Positions 21,124-58,845 of a stretch of DNA of 64,000 nt are shown here, piece by piece. The notes beneath the pieces were generated by a model. It saw only the letters and a list, made by a program, of their open reading frames with translations. It made no database searches and was not told the DNA's origin. Position numbers and translations under genes: made by a program. The stretch lies in assembly GCA_963855995.1 (NCBI GenBank), contig OY979731.1, positions 3,598,942-3,662,941 on the forward strand, written 5' to 3'. The stretch's first letter is position 1. Every line of letters starts with the position of its first letter. The stretch is from Muricea muricata (lineage: Eukaryota > Cnidaria > Anthozoa > Malacalcyonacea > Plexauridae).

Positions 21124-24100
21124 GATTTAAGGTGGCTCCTTATAGTTTTATATCTGTGTAGCGGAGATTTCGCCCACGCGAGATATTTAGCAATGCAACA
21201 CGCGCGGGCTGGTGTCGCACGCGTGGCGGGCTTTTTAAAATTGCGGGAACAGCTCGCGCTAACAAAATATATGTATATTTTTTGTGATTTTTTACCTCGG
21301 CGAAATGGCAACTCTTTTAAAAAACATTTTCCGTCTGAAATATAGTACAGCTCATTTGTTTGCAATGTTACCTGTGTTAGGAAGGTTGTCTCCTGGTTTA
21401 CCAGAGAATGACAAAGAAACCTTGCACAATAATAACAAAACGCCGCCGAAAAATAGCTTTAGCGAGAGACTTGTGAACGGGCGTTTCGGACGACACTCAA
21501 AAAAGAAAGATTTTACCGCTAGGGACGAAGGAAAAAGAATATCGGCAGCAAAACGAAAGCTTGATTTTTGTACAGACACAGAAAACAGCCCCACGAAGCG
21601 ACAAACACGAAGCTCGGCGGTATGTAAATGTTTGTTTTGAAAGTTCAATTATTAGTAAAAATGTAACATTGTTTAGTGTAAAACCGACAAATTTTAACTA
21701 TAGATTGACTCCAATAAAATGCGTTTCTATCTCACGTTTATAGTTCAACACGAATTTTGGAACTCGTATAATTGACTTGGATGTTTTCAAAAACAGTATT
21801 GAGAGATGCATCAGTTGTAACTCAAGTAAAATGCACAACCCTGACAATTACAATGTACTTATATAACCATGAACACTTGGTCACAAAATTAAAACATAGT
21901 TACATAGCATAGTCAAATATAAAAATGTTTCAGAACATTTTTCTCATCAAGGGGAATGCATTTGTACTCTATCTAGTAACTTAGCAAACAAACTTTAAAA
22001 GGCTCCACATTTAATAAGAAAAACATTCTTTCATTAGACACAATAAAATACAAAGTAAGGCATATTATAGTCCAAGTTAAAAATCATGGTCTATTTTTCT
22101 TTTAGGTCCATTATCCTTGACCAAATGTAGAAAGGAACAACATTATGGCTTGGCAAGCACCTTTATGATTCAGTGTCCAACATGTGGTGATATTAATCAT
22201 GTTAAGACATCCAGGGAACATCGGACGGGCAAACGTGGACCAAAATCCTTTGATATCAATTCTCGCATTGTTCTTGGTTTTCTTCATGCAGTAATTGGCC
22301 AAACACACCTAAACAATTTGCTCGCGACCGCCAACATCCCTGGGTTGACAAACAACACATTCAAACATCGAGAACGAGAAGTCGGAGTTGCCATAGAGAA
22401 AGTTGCTAAAAAGAGTTGTAAACAAGCTTTAAATGATGAAAAAGTAATTGGCCTTAGTAATGGAATCCAACCAGATGAGAACAATGTATTACCGATTGCA
22501 TGCTCATTTGACATGGGATGGCAGAAGAGAGGGAAAGGGCACAATTCAAATACTGGTCATGCTGCAGTCATGAGTATGACATCTGGGAAAGTAATGGATT
22601 ACACCACCAGGGAAAAAACATGCAGATTTTGCGACTAAGCAAAGGCAAAAAACATAGCAGCCAAGCCTCATGATTGTCGAAAAGACCATTCAGCATCATC
22701 TAAGGGAATGGAGCCTGATTCAGCTGTAGAAATGTTTAACAATGCTCTGAAAGAAAACGTAAAATTCTCAACATACACTGGTGGTGATGATTCTACCACT
22801 GAGGCTCACATAAGGCAGAAAGTTTCATATGATGTTGAAAAACTAAGTGATGTTGTGCACACCAAAAGGTCAATAACAACCAGACTTTATAACTTGAGTC
22901 AACGAGGCAAATTTCAAAATAGTTCAGTCTCATCACAGAAAGTGATCAATTATTTGGTTAAATGTTTTTCCTATGGCATTGCTCAAAACAAGGGGAATCC
23001 CAAGAAAATTCAAAGTGCAAGCAGAAATGTCATACCACATGCATTGGGAAACATGGTCATTGTGACTCAACCTGGTGTCATTACAAGGAGGATCCGAGAA
23101 AATACAAACATAAGTCCCTTCCATATGGTAAGGATCTATATGGCGACAAGTTAGAAGCAGCTCTGCCACAAATATTTGATGAATACAGTACCGATATTGT
23201 AGCTGAAAAGTTAGCCCCTCTAACAAACTCACAACGTAATGAATCATTAAATGGCGTCATTGGGTCAAAGAATCCAAAAATACGATTTTACGGAGGAAGC
23301 GAAAGTAACGATTTTCGTGTAGCCTGTGGTGTTGCACAAACCAACTTAAGGTATGACTATATCAGCAAAACCTTGGAGGCTTTAAATACTGAGCCTGGAC
23401 GATTTTGTGAACAGTTTAATGAAAAGATGACCCAGAAACTAAATCATGATAAATCCAGAAAGTCGACTGTTGATTTTAAACGCAAAAGGTCACAAATGAA
23501 GTCTCGAACAATAGCAAGCACTTTACACAAAGAGGCAAAAGAAGGAATAACATATGAAACTTCAGTTGGCTTGAACCTTGATCCCAAAGCAAATGTCAAC
23601 ACCACATTAACCCCATCAAGTAGCATGAAGATTAATCTGCAAAGAGTGCCAGACAATGTTTTCAGGGAAATTGAAAATTTAGTTCCACCACACACTTCTC
23701 GTCCACAATCAGAAAAACTTCAGTTCAATGAAATGAAACATTATAATTTTGTGGTCTTTGACATTGAAACAAATGCCATGAGTAAATCAGCAGAAGTTTG
23801 CCAAATTGCAATGACAGATAAAACTGGTTCAAACACATTTTCCCAGTACATTTTACCAACAAAAGATAGAGAAATCCATGCTTCTAAAGTAAATAACCTC
23901 CAAGCTGTTAATGCAAACGGCCAAAGACTGCTTCTTAAAAGTGGACAAGTGCTACCTACTGTAGAATTACATGGAGCCTTAGACAGGTTTTTGACATTTG
24001 TATCTGACATAGTTGATCAAGCAAAAGCAAAAACACAGCAAGATGTACATACCATTCTCATAGGACATAATATTTCCTTATTTGACGCTCCAATTCTTTT

Positions 24101-25417
24101 ACGACACGCGGGAGAACAATTTGCATCACGCTTACAGTCGTTGGATGTCTGGTTTGCCGACTCAATCCCGTTATTTAAATATCTCACAAAATCCGAATAT
24201 CCTTTGCTAAAGAATGACGATGGTTCGTTCCCAAAAATCAACCAATCCTCTCTTTATCAAGCCTTGTTCAACGAATCCTTTTCTGCACACGATGCATTAG
24301 AGGATGTCATTGCACTCAAAAGAATCCTCTTTTCCTCGAAGTTAAAGTTGTCAACAAAATCTGTAGTTGAAAATTCATGTCCAGTAAACGTACGCCATGC
24401 AGTTGCAGACATGAAATATCTTGATCACCGCCATAGACTCGTGCAAACATTCCAAGGCAAACTATTCACGAGTGCATCCAACGCATCAGTTATATCTAAA
24501 GGAATAGTTGAAAAAATCGCCGGGAGTGGTTTGCCCTACAACGATCTTGAGAAAACGTATCGCAAATTCGGTCAAGACGGTTTATTTGCTTTGCTTTCGA
24601 AGCCACCATCGTCGGCAAGTGCTTCGCCTTCCACGACGACTCCAAGAGTGACCCGAACCGATCGAATCCTCACAGCGATCTTGCAGCATTTTAAAGATAC
24701 CGTTCAAATTACAACGTGACAAGTTAAAAAATGTGAGTACAATTGTAAAAATAGGTTAATTCTGGTATATTTGAGCAATATTATCGAGCATCTATCTTAG
24801 CAAATATATTTTTGCGCCAAACCGTTGAGCTCGTATCAGATGACTGTAAACAAATATGCACGCGAGATCCTGCGCGGGATGGTTGGTTTGTCCCGCGAGG
24901 AAATTGAAATCCTGATTATTGTGACGTCACATACATAAAAGTAAATGCATTTTTCTCGTGTTTCCTTCGGTAAATTTTTTTAAAACTTCGCACATTTTCT
25001 TGTAATCTCGAAGTGCGTAACATGAGTAGGTTTTAAAAAAATCGTACGAGCCAATTTTTTTCTATTCCCAAAACAGATCTTTCTGGCGATTAAAAAAGAA
25101 ATGCTTGTACGATTTTTTTAAAATACTATAATTTGAATGAATTAATTAATTATAAAATGAATGTGTGTAAAAGATAAGAAATTTTTACCGAAGAAAAGTT
25201 CGAAAATGTATCAAAATAGGTACAAAAAGACCATTTTTAAAATCACTTTGTTACCATGGCAACAGAGATATTTAACGATATATTTTATTTTTAGTAAATC
25301 GCGATATTTCAGCAGTTATGTGGCCGAGTTTTGTGATCGCACTTTGCAAGATGAGAAAATAATGAACTTTTGAACATGATTGTGTTCTACACAATCAAAA
25401 CTATAGGGAGCCACCTT
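21124..25417 (+). mobile_element. Mutator-like DNA transposon (4.3 kb)
   Basis: AAGGTGGCTCCTTATAGTTTT near the left end is mirrored by AAGGTGGCTCCCTATAGTTTT at the right end. The 8-bp sequence AATACGAG is duplicated on the two sides (21116-21123 and 25418-25425). An 8-bp duplication together with a Mutator-like transposase inside fits a Mutator-type element. Left of the shared TIR there are five extra bases (GATTT) after the duplication. Subterminal sequence is rich in GCGC and CGCGAG phrases. The transposase gene is now broken. Confidence 0.85.
21305..24719 (+). pseudogene. Mutator-like transposase fused to DEDDh (DnaQ/RNase T-like) exonuclease, broken
   Basis: Exon 1 (21305-21619) encodes a basic N-terminus. 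Exon 2 begins at 22106 after TTTTCTTTTAG. It shows a zinc-knuckle-like CPTCGDINHVKTSREHRTGK, then CSFDMGWQKRGKGHNSNTGH (part of the transposase core), CRFCD, and IRFYGGSESNDFRVACGV. From about 23741 follows a 3'-5' exonuclease: VVFDIETN (Exo I), ILIGHNISLFDAPIL (Exo II) and AHDALEDVIAL (Exo III), so all DEDDh residues are visible. Damage: an in-frame TAA at 22636-22638, and a one-base frame change near 23050 (before HGHCDSTWC). The exon 1/2 junction is also out of phase by one as I place it. The product would have moved the surrounding element; the exonuclease role is unknown. Confidence 0.85.
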
Positions 25418-30904: not shown

Positions 30905-31548
30905 CTAACGAAGATAGATTTGTCCACCAGGATTACTAACTCCTTTCTTGTGATTTGGTTGACGTTTTCCACAAGGATCATGAACTGGCCAGAAATAACC
31001 TTTTTTTCCGTTAAAGTCGTAAAATTCCCTAATAGCAGAAATATCAAGTCCAGCACTGTACCAATTTATTCTATTTGGAACCACTCCACTACAAGCTGTC
31101 GCCACGTTCTTTACGTTTTGACAACTTATTGATCCTTCTTTCTTTGCGACTATACTTCCGCCACCTTGTTGACAAACTATCCAATCGTTTATGTTTGATT
31201 TGACCATGAAATCCTTTCCAATGTCCTTCCAGACATTCCAGTCAACAGCCCCAAGTGATGACTCACTAAGTGGAGGGGTGGTTGAGATTGAAATGCTAGC
31301 GCTGCTGGGACGCCAGTTTGGACGGGGGGTGACGGCATTGCTGAGTGAGTTAAAACTGCTGTAATTTGTAAAGGTGTAGCTGTAAACCAAGGTCCAGCCT
31401 CCCCCGCGAGTTTGCATGTCACAGTAAACTTGAAAGAGTTTATTGGAAGCGAGCTTGATCCAGTAAGTTCCTGAAACTGCGACAGTTTTTCTTGCTAAGA
31501 TATCTTTACACGACTTTCCAGGAAGTAATTTTGAACCAGCTGATAAAT
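30905..31548 (-). CDS. FReD gene A, last exon: fibrinogen-related domain
   Basis: Minus-strand exon from an AG acceptor (TTGTTTAAG|AT) to TAG at 30905-30907, open throughout. It encodes PGKSCKDILARKTVAVSGTY, then FQVYCDMQTRGGGWTLVYSY (the N-terminal block of fibrinogen C-terminal domains, including CDM and GGGWTLV). It ends HKKGVSNPGGQIYLR. It is very close to the exon at 57840-58480. Coral proteins of this type are annotated as skeletal organic matrix protein 5-like; secretion is expected. The acceptor needs a phase-1 donor, which the coiled-coil exon at 37778-38267 provides, so I infer they are one gene with a 6.2-kb intron. The canonical calcium-binding C-terminal fibrinogen motif is not visible. 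Confidence 0.85.
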
Positions 31549-32414
31549 CTTAAACAACAAAAATATATTTATTCGCACGTGACATTTCGTAAGATTCTGT
31601 AAACTGTAAAGTGCAACATGCAGTTTTGCTCTGTTTACTGCGAAATGAAAAATGTACGCGTACAAAGCCGTTTTAATTTGCGTACGGTTCAAAACTACAA
31701 AACTATAGAAATGAACGCTATTTACAATTAAACAATAAAATAGAACTACAAATTAATTCGCAATAATGGTTATTGTATAACATCATTTTCGTTTAGGCCC
31801 TCATATTATTTTATAGAACCAGAGTGAAGGACATTCGATGAAATATTTCCTGAAGTGTTGACCTGAGCCCGAGTGAAAAACTGTTTTGTTGGATGCACGT
31901 TACTTTCCTGGTTGAAGCAATCAGTTTGTTTGGTCAGCTTAGTGTTAGGCCAATCAAATTATAGCAATAGATGGATTCAAATACCGCTTTTTGGGACCGA
32001 TTTCTGAACAAATATTTAGACTAATCTGCCTTTACGAACTGTCATGTGCGAATAAAAAACTGCTTAGGAAGAATAATGAAAGACAAAGAAAAGTTTGTTT
32101 TAAAGGGGAAGTCAGGGTTCACAACAAGTTGAGCTTAAATGAAAGATTATACAATGCCTACCTCGCATACAAAGTTTCTTGTCTCCAGATTAAACATAAC
32201 CCCAGAAATAAAGCGACGAACTTGCTTAAATTTGCATGTAGAGCGGCCGCCATCATATACATTGAAGCGAAGCCGCGATCATACAGCGGATTTACTCTGT
32301 GACGTCATTGCGCGGTTTCGCGGGAGCGCCTCGTATTCAAATTTCAAAACATCAAAGCGAATAAGCGAAATCAGAGCAGTATTTAGCGCTTTAAATACTT
32401 ATTTTTTTGTCAAA

Positions 32415-35124
32415 ATGCCGTATTACATGGTGCCTGGTTGCACGAATTGTTCAAAAAAGACAAAAGGGAGTGATATATCGTATCATCGTTTACCAAATGA
32501 CCAGCATATACGCAGAGCGTGGCTTGGACGTGTTCGTCGTGAAAATCTACCCAAAGCAAACTCATGCTATGTTTGTAGCGTTCATTTTACCCCCGACTGT
32601 TTTGAAGGATCCCTTAAGGAATTATTTGGTATGAAAGGCAAAAAGGCTCTTAAACCTGGAAGTGTTCCATCAATATTTCCATTTTTACAACGCAAACCAA
32701 AACGTGAATTATCATACAAGAGAACACAAGTGAAAGAGAAAATTGCAAAAGACAAGGTAATTGACATTAATACTACATTGTAAGTACAACATTACAACAA
32801 ACTTTTAAGGTCCCTCTATTACACATAAAAACATTTATTATTTACAATGGTTGTGTTTGAAGGAAAGTGAGAAATCATTGGGGTTGGGGGAAATGTCATT
32901 GGAGATTGGTGGTGGGGGGGGGGGGGGGGGTTGGTGGTAGTTAGACAAACAAAAACAAATCTACAACAATATTGACCATTGTACAGACAGGTGCTGTACA
33001 TAGTACAAAATAGGTTAAATAGGACTTACATTATCTTGTCATTGTGAATTAGTGATTTTATGTCATTTAAATGTCATTTAAATTGGGGTTCCATTGCATG
33101 AGATAGAAAATTTATTAAGTGGAAAAGTACATGAGAGTATGATTGACACATCACCATGCACGGAACACAACCCTGCTAGTGTTATACATCATGATGCAGA
33201 AACACAGTGTGAAACAACAAATTTGTTTGATGCAGAGACCCAGTGCGAAAAAGTTTTAGAACGGAGTATTGCCATACAAACACTTGCACCACGTAAAAAG
33301 AACACTAAAAAATCAAAAAAATCAGATTCTGCTTATAATTCAAATTCAAATATCAGTTGTCCAGTTGCTACTCCTTTAACACCAGTAGAAATAAAACACA
33401 AGCCATCCACTGCTCGTGCTCTTTATCATGATAGCCCTGTCGAAACCCCACCTGTAGCATCAACTGTAGTGATGGAAACAGACACAACCATTCCACTACC
33501 TGACTCTTGTGAGGTTCCAGGAAAATCTAGTGGTTATGAGGATGACACTTCAGATAGCGACTTGACATCACACACAGATAGTGATGAGGATTTTGAATGT
33601 TCAGAATTGAAACCCACAGATGATGAGTCTGATGAAGAAGGACTAAAAAATGAGAGAAAATTTATTGTGTTTGAAAGCATGCTTGACCAGCTATTTATCA
33701 ACTGCAAAACGTGTGGTTCCATATGTGAGATTGAAAAGTCCAACACAGGCAGTATGGTATCAGTCAAGGCAACCTGTTGTTACAACCATACCTTCCACCG
33801 GACATCCCAACCACAGCTACATGACAAGCCAGCTGGTAACATTCTAATCCCGGCAGCAATTGTGTTTACTGGAGGATCCTATGAATCTATGAAACAATTC
33901 TCTAATGCACTCAATTTAAACTTTGTTAATAAGGATCAGTTTTATGGTGTACAGGATAAGATAGTATTCCCAGTCATCAATAATGCCTATGAAAAACAAC
34001 AAAAAGATGTGATTGAAACAATAAAAGAAAAGAAAAGTTCAGTGGATTTATGTGGTGACGGTCGATCTGATAGCCCTGGTCATAATGCTAAATATGGCAC
34101 GTACTCACTAATGGATGAAGCTACGGGACATATAATCGATTTCTCTCTTGTCCAAGTATCTGAGGTTTCTTCATCCAATGCCATGGAGAATGAAGGATGC
34201 CAAAGATCACTGAACAAAGTCATCGACCAAAATGTCAAGATCAGATCTTTAGCAACAGATCGTCACACTACGATAACAGCAGAAATGCGAAAGAAGTACC
34301 CTTCCATAATCCATCAGTATGATGTGTGGCACTTGTCAAAGTGGGTAACCAAAAAGTTGACCAAGAAAGCCAAGAAAAAAGGCAATGAGCCACTTTTTAA
34401 ATGGATTAAATGTGTTTCCAATCATCTGTGGTGGTGTTCACAGACCTGTGGTGGTAATGCTGAAGCTCTGCGGGAGAGGTGGGTATCAATATTAAACCAT
34501 GTGGTCAACAAACACAAATGGAAAGACAGCAAACACTTTAGAAGATGTGAGCATGGTCGTTTGTCTAGAAGAAAAGAAAGAAAGACAAAATGGTTAGAGG
34601 ATGGATCTTCAGCATATGTTGCACTGGAGGAGGTGGTACTAAATAAAAAATTTTTAAAAGACATTGAAAAACTTACTGAATTTCACCATACAGGCGAGCT
34701 TGAAGTTTATCATTCACTGCTGCTCAAGTACGTTCCCAAGCGTTTGCATTATTCTTACAAAGGCATGGTCGCCCGAACTCAGTTGGTAGTTATTGACCAC
34801 AACTCCAACACTGGAAGAAAGCAGGCAACAGTGACACGGGGAAAAAACAAAGGGAACATGAAATACAAGTTGGTTTTCCCTAAAGGGCAGAAGAAATGGG
34901 TGGCAAAACCAGTAAAGACCAGGAAGTCATACTCATTTGTTGAAGACTTGATGGAAACAGTTTTTTCATTTGAAGCTGCAACAACAGATGATAGAGACAC
35001 AACTGATGATGAGGACAATACCACTACTCCAGCCAGTATTCCAAAAAATATTGCACCCATACCAAGGCCAAGTAGAGAGGAGATTATTACTGCCCACAAA
35101 ACACGGATGGGAAAAAAACTATGA
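32415..35124 (+). CDS. Kolobok THAP-domain transposase, 2 exons, about 787 aa
   Basis: Exon 1 is 32415-32756 (donor AAG|GTAATT). Exon 2 is taken as 33103-35124 (acceptor at the AG of CATGAG, phase 0; this acceptor is weak and the exact border is uncertain). Residues 1-90 are a THAP zinc finger: GCTNC (C9, C12), W36, CSVHF (C54, H57) and the closing PSIFPF. An acidic, Ser-rich linker with two DAETQCE motifs follows. The core reads LCGDGRSDSPGHNAKYGTYS (D433), LATDRHTTI (D500), DVWHLSKWV, SNHLWW and GELEVYHSLLLKYVPKR (E648). The three acidic residues are my candidates for the DDE triad. By family it cuts at the TIRs and inserts at TTAA. No stop or frameshift was found. Confidence 0.92.
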
Positions 35125-35641
35125 GTACCAATTGGTAGTATGATTCTAGTTTGAGTGTGGTAACTCATTTATAAGCTTCAATGTACTCAGATGCATTCTA
35201 CCTTATTATTTTACTTTGTCTAATGCTTGATGATTTTACTTGGTGCAAGGGGAACATTGGGGCTTAGTGGGATAAAAACAACTCACAGTATATATAATTT
35301 GTTGTCAAACATTAAAGAGGGATTACAGTCCCGTATATGTAAAATATGACTTACTAAATGAATATCTGACACTTTTCTGGTTTGCTATGCTTATAAATGA
35401 ATGTAAACCAGAGTTTCAATTCAAAAAGAGTTCGAAAAATGCGAAATTGGGACAATGTTTATATTTGGTGGCACACCTTTGTTATGAGCAGAACCGATGC
35501 GCAGAATAATTACACTATACTTAGCATGTCTTGCTCATGATAACTTGAAATTATATTTAGAACGAAATTAAGTAGATTACAAACATGTAAAAACAACAAA
35601 GAACCAATGCTACAATATAATATTTACAGAAACTGAATCAC

Positions 35642-36481
35642 CTACTCATCTGCAAACTTAAACCCTTCAAAAACAAAGTCCTCTTCTAAGCCTGGTGGTG
35701 GAAAATGTGCTCTAATACAGCTCACTACACATGATGGCAAGGGGACCCTTATCTCCTTGCCTAGAATATCCCAACACCACCTAACAAATTGCCTATATGC
35801 AACATGTCGATGTTTTTTGTGTTCAGGGCCTTCAAAAGCTTTTGCACCATACTGCTGCCGATATTGACTCCAAGCAAGTCGCAATACCCAAAAATTTAAA
35901 CATATATTTAGAAATACAGGGTTATCAGTAATGCATTCTGGAATGGCTATTCCCTCAAATTCTGCTGATTCTTGGTTTATAGACACACAAGCTGGAACCT
36001 CCTGGCAACAAACACTTTCTTCTTCCCTTTCCATTATTTGGCAGTGGGTACAAAGGCACCTACATGTATAGAGCTAGGGTCAAATTTTATGATCATTTGT
36101 GATATGTTAATCCGCATTTTAACTCTAGAATTTTCAACCACCATGGGTACATGACAAACAGAACTACAGTGTTCATCTGCATTCATAAACTGTATATACT
36201 GTAAATATATCTTATATCTATATCTAAAATAATTCAGAATTAAATATTATTGTTAATTACCAGTTTGTATCCTGAAGTCTAGTATTTTCAGAATTCGATG
36301 AAGACTCTGAAACCATTTCCTCCGATCCTGAACCTTCGCCACCCGAGTCAGTTTCAACCGGCTCAAAGGCATACGGTTGAATAGTGTTTACCTCCCTTCG
36401 GACGTTCATTTCTTCGCTGGAGCACGACTCACTAATTTCAGAGCTGTTACACGAAGATTCGTTTGAGTAATCAACATCCAT
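35642..36481 (-). CDS. P2X7-receptor C-terminal-domain-like protein, 2 exons, 212 aa, no channel part
   Basis: Exon 1 is 36261-36481 and exon 2 is 35642-36059 (TAG at 35642); the junction makes the Trp of NWCLCTHC. The N-terminal 60 residues are acidic and Ser-rich with IQPYAFEPVETD. Then come CLCTHCQIME, SVCCQEVPACV, CITDNPVFL, HVAYRQFVRWCWDILGK, VPLPSCVVSCIRAHFP and a final GF. This cysteine/Trp pattern (WC-x-C-x2-C, CC, CIT, AYR, LPSC, IR-x2-FP) is that of the zinc-binding cytoplasmic ballast domain of P2X7 receptors. There is no transmembrane or ATP-binding part. Database entries of this type are often called P2X purinoceptor 7-like. The gene is wholly inside the Kolobok element and converges on the transposase (517 bp apart). 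Function in the transposon is unknown. Confidence 0.9.
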
Positions 36482-36788
36482 TTCGCCTTATATTCCTTTT
36501 ATAAATATCTTAAATTATTTGTATACCAAGATATGCTATAATCTGCATATGAAAGAGAAGAAACATTAACAGCTAACCGCGCAATGACGTCACAGAGTAA
36601 ATCCGCTGCATGATCGCGGCTTCGCTTCAATGTATATAATGGCGGCTGCGCTACATGCAAATTTAAGCAAGTTCGTCGCTTTATTTCTGAGGTTATATTT
36701 AATCTGGAGACAAGAAACTTTGTATGCGAGGTAGGCATTGTATAACCTTTCATTTAAGCCCAACTTGTTGTGAACCCTGACTTCCCCT

Positions 36789-37777
36789 TTAAGCACTGAA
36801 ATGATAGTTGTTCCAAGACTGAGTTTTAACAGGTTTCGAATGCGGAGGTTCACTATGAACTCTCGTTGGGGGGGGAGGCCTTTGCGTGAAAATATGCAAG
36901 ATGTATCAATACAATTTTGCAATTAAACTGGCTGTAAAATATGCATTACAAGCGCAAAAAATACGGAGTATAGCACCAAAAAAACCCCAAATAAAACTAG
37001 AGTAATAAAAATGGATTTAACCACAAATACCCAAGTATTCAAAAGACATTCGTTAAATTTCTGTGCACAATATTAAGGTGGTTTAATACAGTTTTCAAAA
37101 AATTAAGCTATATATAGTAGTTTTATAGCAGTTTTGATTACCAATGTCTCGTTGCTATGACAACACTTGCATATAAAACTTACTCAAAAAGGAGGTGTTT
37201 TGCTGCATAAGTAAAAAAGAAGCACGGTGACCCCCAAATTTTTCTTCGCATTATGTTGTAAACACCATAGACTAACATTGTGTAAAACTTCAAAAAAATC
37301 AATAACGCCAATTTTTTTTGAACTGCGAAAATGCTGTTTTCTTGAAAAATATTTTTTCCACATTACAATTTTTTATTATTTTTGTATAATGCAAATTTTT
37401 GTGGTACAATACTGAATGAAAAATTTGAAGATAGGTTACCGTGCGAAAAAAGAAGACATAGCATATTTAGTTTAAAAAAATAAATTTTTAGTGTCGTCAG
37501 CAGCTAGAAAATCCGCATTCTGCTGGTGTTTGTATTAATACGCGCGAAATGGCGACAGCATCTCAGGCCCCGTTTACACTATTACGCTACGAATAACAGT
37601 CTGTTGATGACATGCAATTTTCGATGTTTTACGTCTTTTGTTTGTTGTAAACGTGATATATAATAATTGTGTAAGTAACGAAGTCATGGTTAACATGATA
37701 TTGAGCAGAATATTAATTGGGTCCATGATTTCTTGCCATGATGATGCGGTGGTATGCTATATTTTACTTTTACTTAC
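36789..37777. other. intron of FReD gene A beyond the Kolobok element
   Basis: A TTAAGGTGGTTTAATACAGTTTT phrase at about 37074 looks like a repeat end, but no partner was identified. No exon seen. Confidence 0.4.
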
Positions 37778-57839: not shown

Positions 57840-58480
57840 CTAACGAAGATAGATTTGTCCACCAGGGTTGCTTACTCCTTTCTTGTGATTTTCTTCAAGT
57901 TTTCCACAAGGATCGTGAATTGGCCAGCTAGAACGGGTGTCCCCATCAAAGTAATAATAACACGATGAAGCATAAAGCGAAAGTCCTCGAGAAAGCCAAT
58001 ACATTTTATTTGGAGCCACACCACTACAAGCTGTCGCCACGTTCTTTATGTTTTGACAGCTTAGTGATCCTCCTTTCTTTGTGAGTATACTTCCGCCTTT
58101 TAGTTGACAAACTATCCAATCGTTTATGTTGGATTTGACCATGAAATCCTTTCCAATGTCCTTCCAGATATTCCAGTCAACAGCGCCAAGTGATGACTCA
58201 TTCAGTGGAGGGGTGGTTGAGATTGGAACGTTGGCGCTGCTGGCAGGCCAGTTTGGACGGGGGGTGACGGCATTACTTCTTGAGCCAAAACTGTTGTAAT
58301 TCGTAAAAATGTAGCTGTAAACCAAGGTCCAGGCTCCGCCGCGAGTTTGCATGTCACAGTAAACTTGAAAGGTTTTATTGGAAGCGAGCTTGATCCAGTA
58401 AGTTCCTGAGACTGGGGACGTGTATTTGGCTAAGATGTCTTTACACGACTTTCCAGGAAATAATTTTGAGCCAAATAAAT
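57840..58480 (-). CDS. FReD gene C, last exon: fibrinogen-related domain
   Basis: Open from the acceptor GTTATTTTAG|AT at 58480 to TAG at 57840-57842, 212 codons plus a split one. It encodes GSKLFPGKSCKDILAKYTSP, SGTYWIKLASNKTFQVYCDM, RGGAWTLVYSY, DWNIWKDIGKDFMVKSNIND and HKKGVSNPGGQIYLR. It is a close paralogue of 30905-31548, with the same acceptor position. The frame also runs upstream to an ATG at 58526, giving a hydrophobic N-terminus (KVITIFVILDLFGS) that could be mistaken for a signal peptide. The conserved acceptor in both paralogues argues that this is intron. Its phase fits the EGF exon at 62866-62987, so I infer a PAN-EGF-FReD secreted protein. Confidence 0.85.
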
Positions 58481-58845
58481 CTAAAATAACAAAAATGGTT
58501 ATCACTTTACACGTGGTAGATCGCAAAATTCTCGCACTGATTTGGAACCATAACCTGATTTAGTAAAATAATGGGAATGACAAAGAGTCGAGATTTTGAA
58601 AACAATCGAGCAAACTAATTACATCGGTGAATTCCTGTTTTCGCATTACGTGAACAAATTCACCCAGTCAAAAACCGGATTTAAGTAGCCAGTCAGCTGG
58701 CCGTATTTCTGTGAAACTGGGTCGGGGGGAGGGGGATACGGCCGGCCCAAAAACTACGATATTTTGTATTTCTCAGTCGCGTACGCAACGCTAAATCCCT
58801 AGTGGTTAAGATTCAATTTCATTGTCAACTTGATGTTTTAAATTA

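Follow-up and report, generated by a model that had tools for sequence, protein, structure and literature searches.

A Kolobok transposon of Muricea muricata, probably autonomous and of the Kol0 kind, that pairs a THAP transposase with a KolX protein

In a 64,000-nucleotide stretch of Muricea muricata DNA (GCA_963855995.1, contig OY979731.1, positions 3,598,942 to 3,662,941 of the forward strand; hereafter the window), we identified a transposable element of 4,685 bp (32104–36788), bounded by TTAA at both ends, whose terminal inverted repeats (TIRs) enclose two open, convergent genes with predicted splicing: one for a predicted THAP-domain transposase of 787 residues and one for KolX, a predicted protein of 212 residues. 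On the evidence of its sequence, the element is likely an intact Kol0-type DNA transposon of the Kolobok superfamily, autonomous and probably recently mobile, in which KolX would be an accessory factor supplied in trans. KolX itself looks like a long-term selected partner of the transposon rather than passenger DNA. We base this reading on its linkage to the transposase, on matching groups in the trees of the two proteins and on a ratio of nonsynonymous to synonymous change (dN/dS) of about 0.15 between families; some copies lack it.

The pairing itself is already published. According to Kojima & Bao 2022, both a transposase and KolX are encoded by the first Kolobok families to be reported, which form their Kol0 group (PMC9587614), and the novelty that an initial annotation, made from the window sequence alone, had seen in a two-protein system therefore falls away. 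The window family is probably an additional Kol0 family, and the discovery value is small since the pairing was known. What is new here is quantitative: within one genome, a convergent arrangement at 68 of 77 listed loci, parallel descent of the two proteins and purifying selection between families. A literature search for KolX together with Kolobok returned Kojima & Bao 2022 alone (PMC9587614), and a search on KolX function found no paper testing it.

Structure and classification of the element

The features of the element are collected in Table 1. The initial annotation had reported TTAA on both sides, 214-bp TIRs with about ten differences, and two uninterrupted genes facing each other. The TTAA sites, the length of the repeats and the two open genes are borne out, and the repeats differ at eight positions, seven of which are transitions. 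The KolX ATG lies 93 bp from the right TIR and not, as had been stated, 96 bp. No second copy of the element is present within the window.

Table 1. Features of the element, in window coordinates
Feature	Position	Strand	Basis
Left TTAA target site	32100..32103		sequence
Left TIR, 214 bp, start AGGGGAAG	32104..32317	+	sequence
Transposase exon 1: THAP domain, C2CH, SVPSIF box	32415..32756	+	PF05485 E 3.4e-18, motifs
Transposase intron, GT...AG, with poly-G run; acceptor inferred	32757..33102	+	sequence
Transposase exon 2: acidic linker, DDE catalytic region, H2CH motif, stop	33103..35124	+	PF20700 E 6.8e-11; GDGR, TDRH, DVWH, H2CH, LEVYHS motifs
KolX exon 2: seven expected zinc cysteines, RHVAYR and CIRAHFPP motifs, stop	35642..36059	-	PF20478, 11-sequence alignment
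KolX intron, GT...AG	36060..36260	-	sequence, score rise on splicing
KolX exon 1: acidic, serine-rich N terminus; end meets exon 2 at W preceding C-x-C-x2-C cluster	36261..36481	-	sequence
Right TIR, 96.3% identity to left	36575..36788	-	sequence
Right TTAA target site	36789..36792		sequence

The initial annotation had assigned the element to Kolobok and its transposase to the THAP type; both assignments are upheld by the target site, the termini and the two Pfam domains of the transposase. The TTAA target site duplication is a hallmark of Kolobok, and the termini (AG...CT) fit the Kolobok rule 5'-RR...YY-3', which is described as separating Kolobok from piggyBac (PMC9587614). We rejected a piggyBac identity despite the TTAA, as the termini and the transposase domain point elsewhere. 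With the Kol0 lineage (Kolobok-1_XT type) as described, the element has in common the TTAA, the 5'-AG...CT-3' termini, a DDE transposase, which in the window element carries a THAP domain, and KolX (PMC9587614). The assignment to Kol0 is made through the published description and the presence of KolX, the named Kol0 families being compared by description only.

The spliced transposase is stop-free, and an alternative acceptor, with the exon starting at 33136, would also be in frame. In addition to the THAP and Mutator-like transposase domains, we located by motif the (C/D)xxH element (DVWH), an H2CH at H585–H598 and LEVYHS; a (C/D)xxH motif and an H2CH zinc finger ahead of the last E are characteristic of Kolobok. 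From motif context, the catalytic triad would be D433, D500 and E648. The THAP domain contains C2CH and an AVPTIF-like box, SVPSIF in this case, a combination described as usual and not universal in Kolobok (PMC6004289). No PDB sequence matched the transposase exon, a scan of genome contigs with the transposase gave no relatives, and scans of viral contigs with the transposase and with KolX gave none for either protein.

The KolX protein

Joining the two KolX exons raises the score against P2RX7_C (PF20478) from 34.4 bits for exon 2 alone (E 2.6e-8) to 47.1 bits (E 3.3e-12), an improvement that supports the splice model. No other match to KolX exon 2 within the window is better than E 0.46. 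For comparison, we aligned 11 chosen KolX sequences, including that of the window and leaving out L061, which carries a stop; because this alignment (A1) contains the close pairs L036/L060 and L051/L057, it represents fewer than 11 families. The similarity to the P2X7 ballast that is expected of a Kol0 KolX is present, with PF20478 matching all 11 sequences.

KolX is described as resembling residues 476–595 of human P2X7, the cytoplasmic ballast with its two zinc ions and seven cysteines (PMC9587614). The seven cysteines predicted to bind zinc in the window KolX are C75, C77, C80, C91, C92, C116 and C184, and in A1 six of these positions are invariant and that of C75 is kept in 10 of 11 sequences. 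C116 and C184 were placed by profile alignment, the first five by the published motif (PMC7016195), since these five are not in register in the profile; the C-x-C-x2-C and CC clusters fit the ballast motif as given in Rump 2020 (PMC7016195). When the A1 profile was searched against the PDB, P2X7 chains were the top four matches (best E 9.7e-5), the CIT and PSC cysteines and RHxAYR aligned, and R578 of P2X7 landed on an invariant arginine. Searched by itself, the single KolX protein gave P2X7 only, at no better than E 0.14–0.18. An AlphaFold2 model of KolX exon 2, built from the single sequence without an alignment, was too poor to inform (mean predicted local distance difference test (pLDDT) score of 64), and Foldseek with this low-confidence model found no PDB match at E ≤ 0.001.

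Copies of the family in the host genome

The host genome searched (453 Mb, 74 contigs) contains 37 matches to the TIR. We examined 20 stretches around such matches; C2:31538172, C70:138924 and C16:9905048 were not among them. Four full-length relatives (L009, L012, L013 and L014) measure 4,689–4,729 bp, with TIR identity of 96–99% and TTAA on both sides. From these relatives and the 37 TIR matches, we conclude that the window family has moved. Both TIRs were found in 12 copies, of which 10 have TTAA on both sides and 11 on each side taken alone. Internal deletion forms (L011 and L017, each 1.3 kb; L015, 2.8 kb) and enlarged copies (L018, L019 and L020; 7.5–8.1 kb) also occur.

Among the own-family copies examined, both genes are open in the window copy only. 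KolX exon 2 is open and the transposase broken in L012, L013 and L014, and the same holds for L009, whose KolX exon 2 has lost eight residues. KolX exon 1 is found at 90–100% identity in L009, L012–L016, L018, L020 and L023, in two pieces (95 and 82%) in L019, and at 68% in L022 and 49% in L027. In L011 and L017, KolX is absent and most of the transposase is gone as well; we interpret these two as non-autonomous derivatives that were mobilized in trans.

At three further loci, L024, L025 and L026, a single TIR of this family is present, the 5 kb examined contain no gene match, and KolX fragments follow 7–16 kb beyond; these may be enlarged elements.

Linkage of transposase and KolX

We searched the genome with both proteins and obtained at least 95 transposase matches (the best 88 of 1,539 candidates scored) and at least 150 KolX matches (the best 150 of 1,073 candidates scored), which merge by position into at least 77 and at least 142 loci, respectively. 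A KolX match lies on the opposite strand within 5 kb downstream at 68 of the 77 listed transposase loci, compared with about 0.06 expected by chance. On the same strand and within the same distance there is none at any of the 77, the order being convergent in all 68. Of 30 transposase loci returned as sequence (L029–L058, the window copy included), 29 have KolX exon 2, convergent in every case. Two later copies, L060 and L061, both have KolX, in L061 with the stop mentioned above. The supposition in the initial annotation that the second gene is conserved is in agreement with this linkage and with the selection described below. The check that it had proposed, on whether both genes are always present, was run in part on this genome and favours the gene at 68 of the 77 listed loci; among own-family copies, L011 and L017 lack KolX, and L010 has it in partial form.

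Two sets of KolX matches stand out by their arrangement. On C1:110313899–110330650, four partial matches are evenly spaced at 5,486 bp, as if a unit containing KolX were repeated there in tandem. A further group, with no listed Kolobok transposase nearby, has matches that end at residue 105 (C1:108751417, C15:5570777, C3:32036715, C3:16466125 and C8:7549198, among others), as would be seen if the PSC part lay behind an intron; these are possibly another KolX-bearing lineage or host genes.

Parallel descent and selection

The distance matrices of transposase and KolX are correlated over 14 copies, some partial transposase frames being included, with r 0.73, a value that none of 10,000 permutations reached. 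Over one copy each of nine families r is 0.46, which 14 of 10,000 permutations equalled or exceeded. FastTree trees of the two proteins contain the same groups: the window family with L036; L039 with L052; and L048, L051 and L053 together. L042, L038, L040, L044 and L046 follow an identical order in both. The trees disagree on how the deepest groups join, where node support is 0.74 for KolX and 0.13 for the transposase.

Between families, KolX has changed far less at the amino acid level than expected. In the comparison of L048/L050 with L051/L053/L055/L057, dN/dS is 0.15–0.16 for KolX and 0.04–0.08 for the transposase, over eight pairs that represent one divergence between two clades. Four between-family KolX pairs show 23–37 amino acid changes against a mean of 52–72 when equally many nucleotide differences are placed at random, and for each of the four pairs none of 2,000 random trials reached as few. 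Within the window family, whose near-identical copies differ by too few changes to resolve constraint, the comparison of the window copy with L014 shows a deficit of amino acid changes (24 of 2,000 trials as low), and those with L012, L009 and L013 show none (195, 466 and 2,000 of 2,000 trials, respectively).

The dN/dS set comprised 24 frames and 276 pairs, in 194 of which the synonymous rate (dS) is at least 2 or undefined. Seven duplicate loci of the same copies were left out, as were partial KolX frames except L043 and L050; L018 and L043 contain frame-shifted stretches, which raise the nonsynonymous rate (dN) wherever these two are compared. We do not rely on the median (0.18, from 58 pairs), as dependent pairs are mixed in it. 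The dN/dS check proposed in the initial annotation, in which a ratio near 1 would mark passenger DNA, favours the gene between families, at about 0.15 where measurable; among very recent copies the ratio often lies near or above 1. A fair statement from these frames is that KolX has been under strong purifying selection in the long term, with no resolvable constraint since the latest insertions.

Role and origin of KolX

In the mechanism that we propose, the THAP domain of the transposase would recognize the TIRs, and the DDE core would excise the element and integrate it at TTAA. The small zinc-cysteine protein made from the convergent gene, KolX, would assist in trans during this cycle, by helping to assemble the transpososome, to deliver it to the nucleus or to regulate it. 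The anatomy, the multicopy family, the linkage of the two genes across families, their parallel descent and the purifying selection on KolX are shown here; a joint action of KolX and the transposase, and the step concerned, is our inference.

Several observations weigh against KolX as a constant and constrained partner. At nine of the 77 listed transposase loci, no match to KolX lies within 5 kb; in-frame stops interrupt the transposase match at eight of these, and the ninth, C1:48499003, is stop-free over the matched part. L035, which belongs to these nine and is the exception among the 30 returned loci, has no KolX in a further 2.7 kb (L059). In L010, the right TIR was not detected and the KolX is partial beside an open transposase exon 2. 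Conversely, 74 of the 142 listed KolX loci have no listed transposase nearby, and some of these may be stand-alone KolX genes. Frames outside A1 drop conserved residues: L015, L053 and L055 lack one zinc cysteine each, and the RH motif has D for H in L009 and G for R in L019; several of these copies are broken elsewhere too. Finally, KolX dN/dS is noisy among very recent copies, many values being close to 1 or higher, as in the L051/L053/L055/L057 group, where the L055–L057 value of 1.4 derives from one synonymous and five nonsynonymous changes. Such ratios are expected after insertion, and they do not help the claim of selection.

This lack of clear constraint among near-identical copies, and the fact that the KolX-less deletion derivatives L011 and L017 have moved, are what one would expect if KolX were passenger DNA or cargo with no role for the element. 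We nevertheless regard that explanation as very improbable and have rejected it in view of the linkage at 68 of 77 listed loci, all convergent, the parallel descent and the between-family purifying selection; the two derivatives have lost most of the transposase too and are accounted for by movement in trans. Still harder to credit is an origin of the minus-strand gene as a captured host P2X7-like exon, for which its membership in the same Pfam family and the profile match to solved P2X7 chains would speak. The genome has at least 142 KolX loci, a Kolobok transposase adjoins 68 of those listed, and the KolX tree parallels that of the transposase. In addition, Rump 2020 reports ballast-domain proteins across animals and the ballast joined to P2X in vertebrates only (PMC7016195), and Kojima & Bao 2022 argue that P2X7 gained its ballast from KolX, which they place as the donor (PMC9587614). 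The "channel-derived" module of the initial annotation thus has the published direction reversed, and we discarded the reading of KolX as channel-derived cargo on that ground. The words "transpos" and "Kolobok" occur zero times in the main text of Rump 2020 (PMC7016195).

The principal rival is that KolX does not help the reaction but is a regulator or host-facing protein, which would either repress transposition or protect the element from silencing by the host. Purifying selection and linkage would suit any selected role, and the open KolX exon 2 beside a broken transposase in L012, L013 and L014 (and, with its eight-residue loss, L009) is what a repressor acting in trans would allow. However, KolX is less than one third the length of the transposase and would be expected to outlast it by chance: a decay simulation that assumes TIRs identical at insertion and 12% indels leaves 15% of KolX frames and 0.1% of transposase frames intact. 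We use this simulation, and with it TIR divergence as a clock, as a caution only, given that the repeats of a DNA transposon need not be identical when it inserts. On balance, we consider a regulatory or host-facing role unlikely, although it is the strongest of the alternatives, and prefer KolX as an accessory factor of transposition.

A more speculative proposal, by analogy with the GTP-binding domain of the P element, is that KolX is a guanine-nucleotide-responsive cofactor used in trans by Kol0 transposases. As the P-element THAP transposase is described as needing GTP as a cofactor (PMC7776569), we consider this conjecture worth testing, improbable as it is. Rump 2020 lists R546, H547 and R578 among the residues that contact guanosine (PMC7016195), and the equivalents of all three are invariant in the 11 sequences of A1, including that of H547, which the same paper reports as not found in invertebrate ballast proteins. 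On the other hand, the positions of R574 and K583 are V and P in all 11 sequences, and the invariance of the other residues may be structural. If the proposal were true, the GDP/GTP site in the ballast of P2X7, for which there is no explanation so far, would be what is left of a transposition cofactor. Apart from this proposal, the finding that KolX is a selected part of the transposon opens both its role and the source of the nucleotide and zinc sites in the ballast to direct test.

Relation to known systems

The P element and THAP9 resemble the window element in having a THAP-domain transposase; to our knowledge, neither is accompanied by a KolX. The P element also differs in that its GTP domain lies inside the transposase and its target duplications are 8 bp long (PMC7776569). 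The P2X7 ballast (PF20478; chains such as 6u9v) shares with KolX the aligned CIT and PSC cysteines and the R546–H547 and R578 equivalents, whereas KolX has no channel part, has its own acidic N-terminal exon and carries V and P in place of R574 and K583. The Nanor proteins of fishes, which we liken to KolX by description only, are described as likely domesticated KolX and are host genes outside transposons (PMC9587614). KolobokD, KolobokE, KolobokH and KolobokP are each described as combining a Kolobok transposase with a lineage-specific accessory protein, although theirs are nucleases or a helicase instead of KolX (PMC9587614).

Other features of the window

A second Kolobok-like element, of the KolobokD type, occupies 21131–25415, with TTAA at 21127 and 25416 and terminal repeats GGTGGCTCC(T/C)TATAGTTTT that agree at 18 of the first 20 positions. 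It contains a Mutator-like transposase gene with an interrupted frame (PF20700, E 1.5e-49) and an exuperantia/DEDDh-like exonuclease gene (PF22123, E 8.1e-8), and no significant match to KolX was found in it. The exonuclease frame has a PML_C match near its end, at 24480–24698 (PF25244, E 1.5e-7). Elsewhere in the window, two related fibrinogen-C-like frames (PF00147) lie about 26 kb apart, at 30905–31549 and at 57840–58559 on the minus strand.

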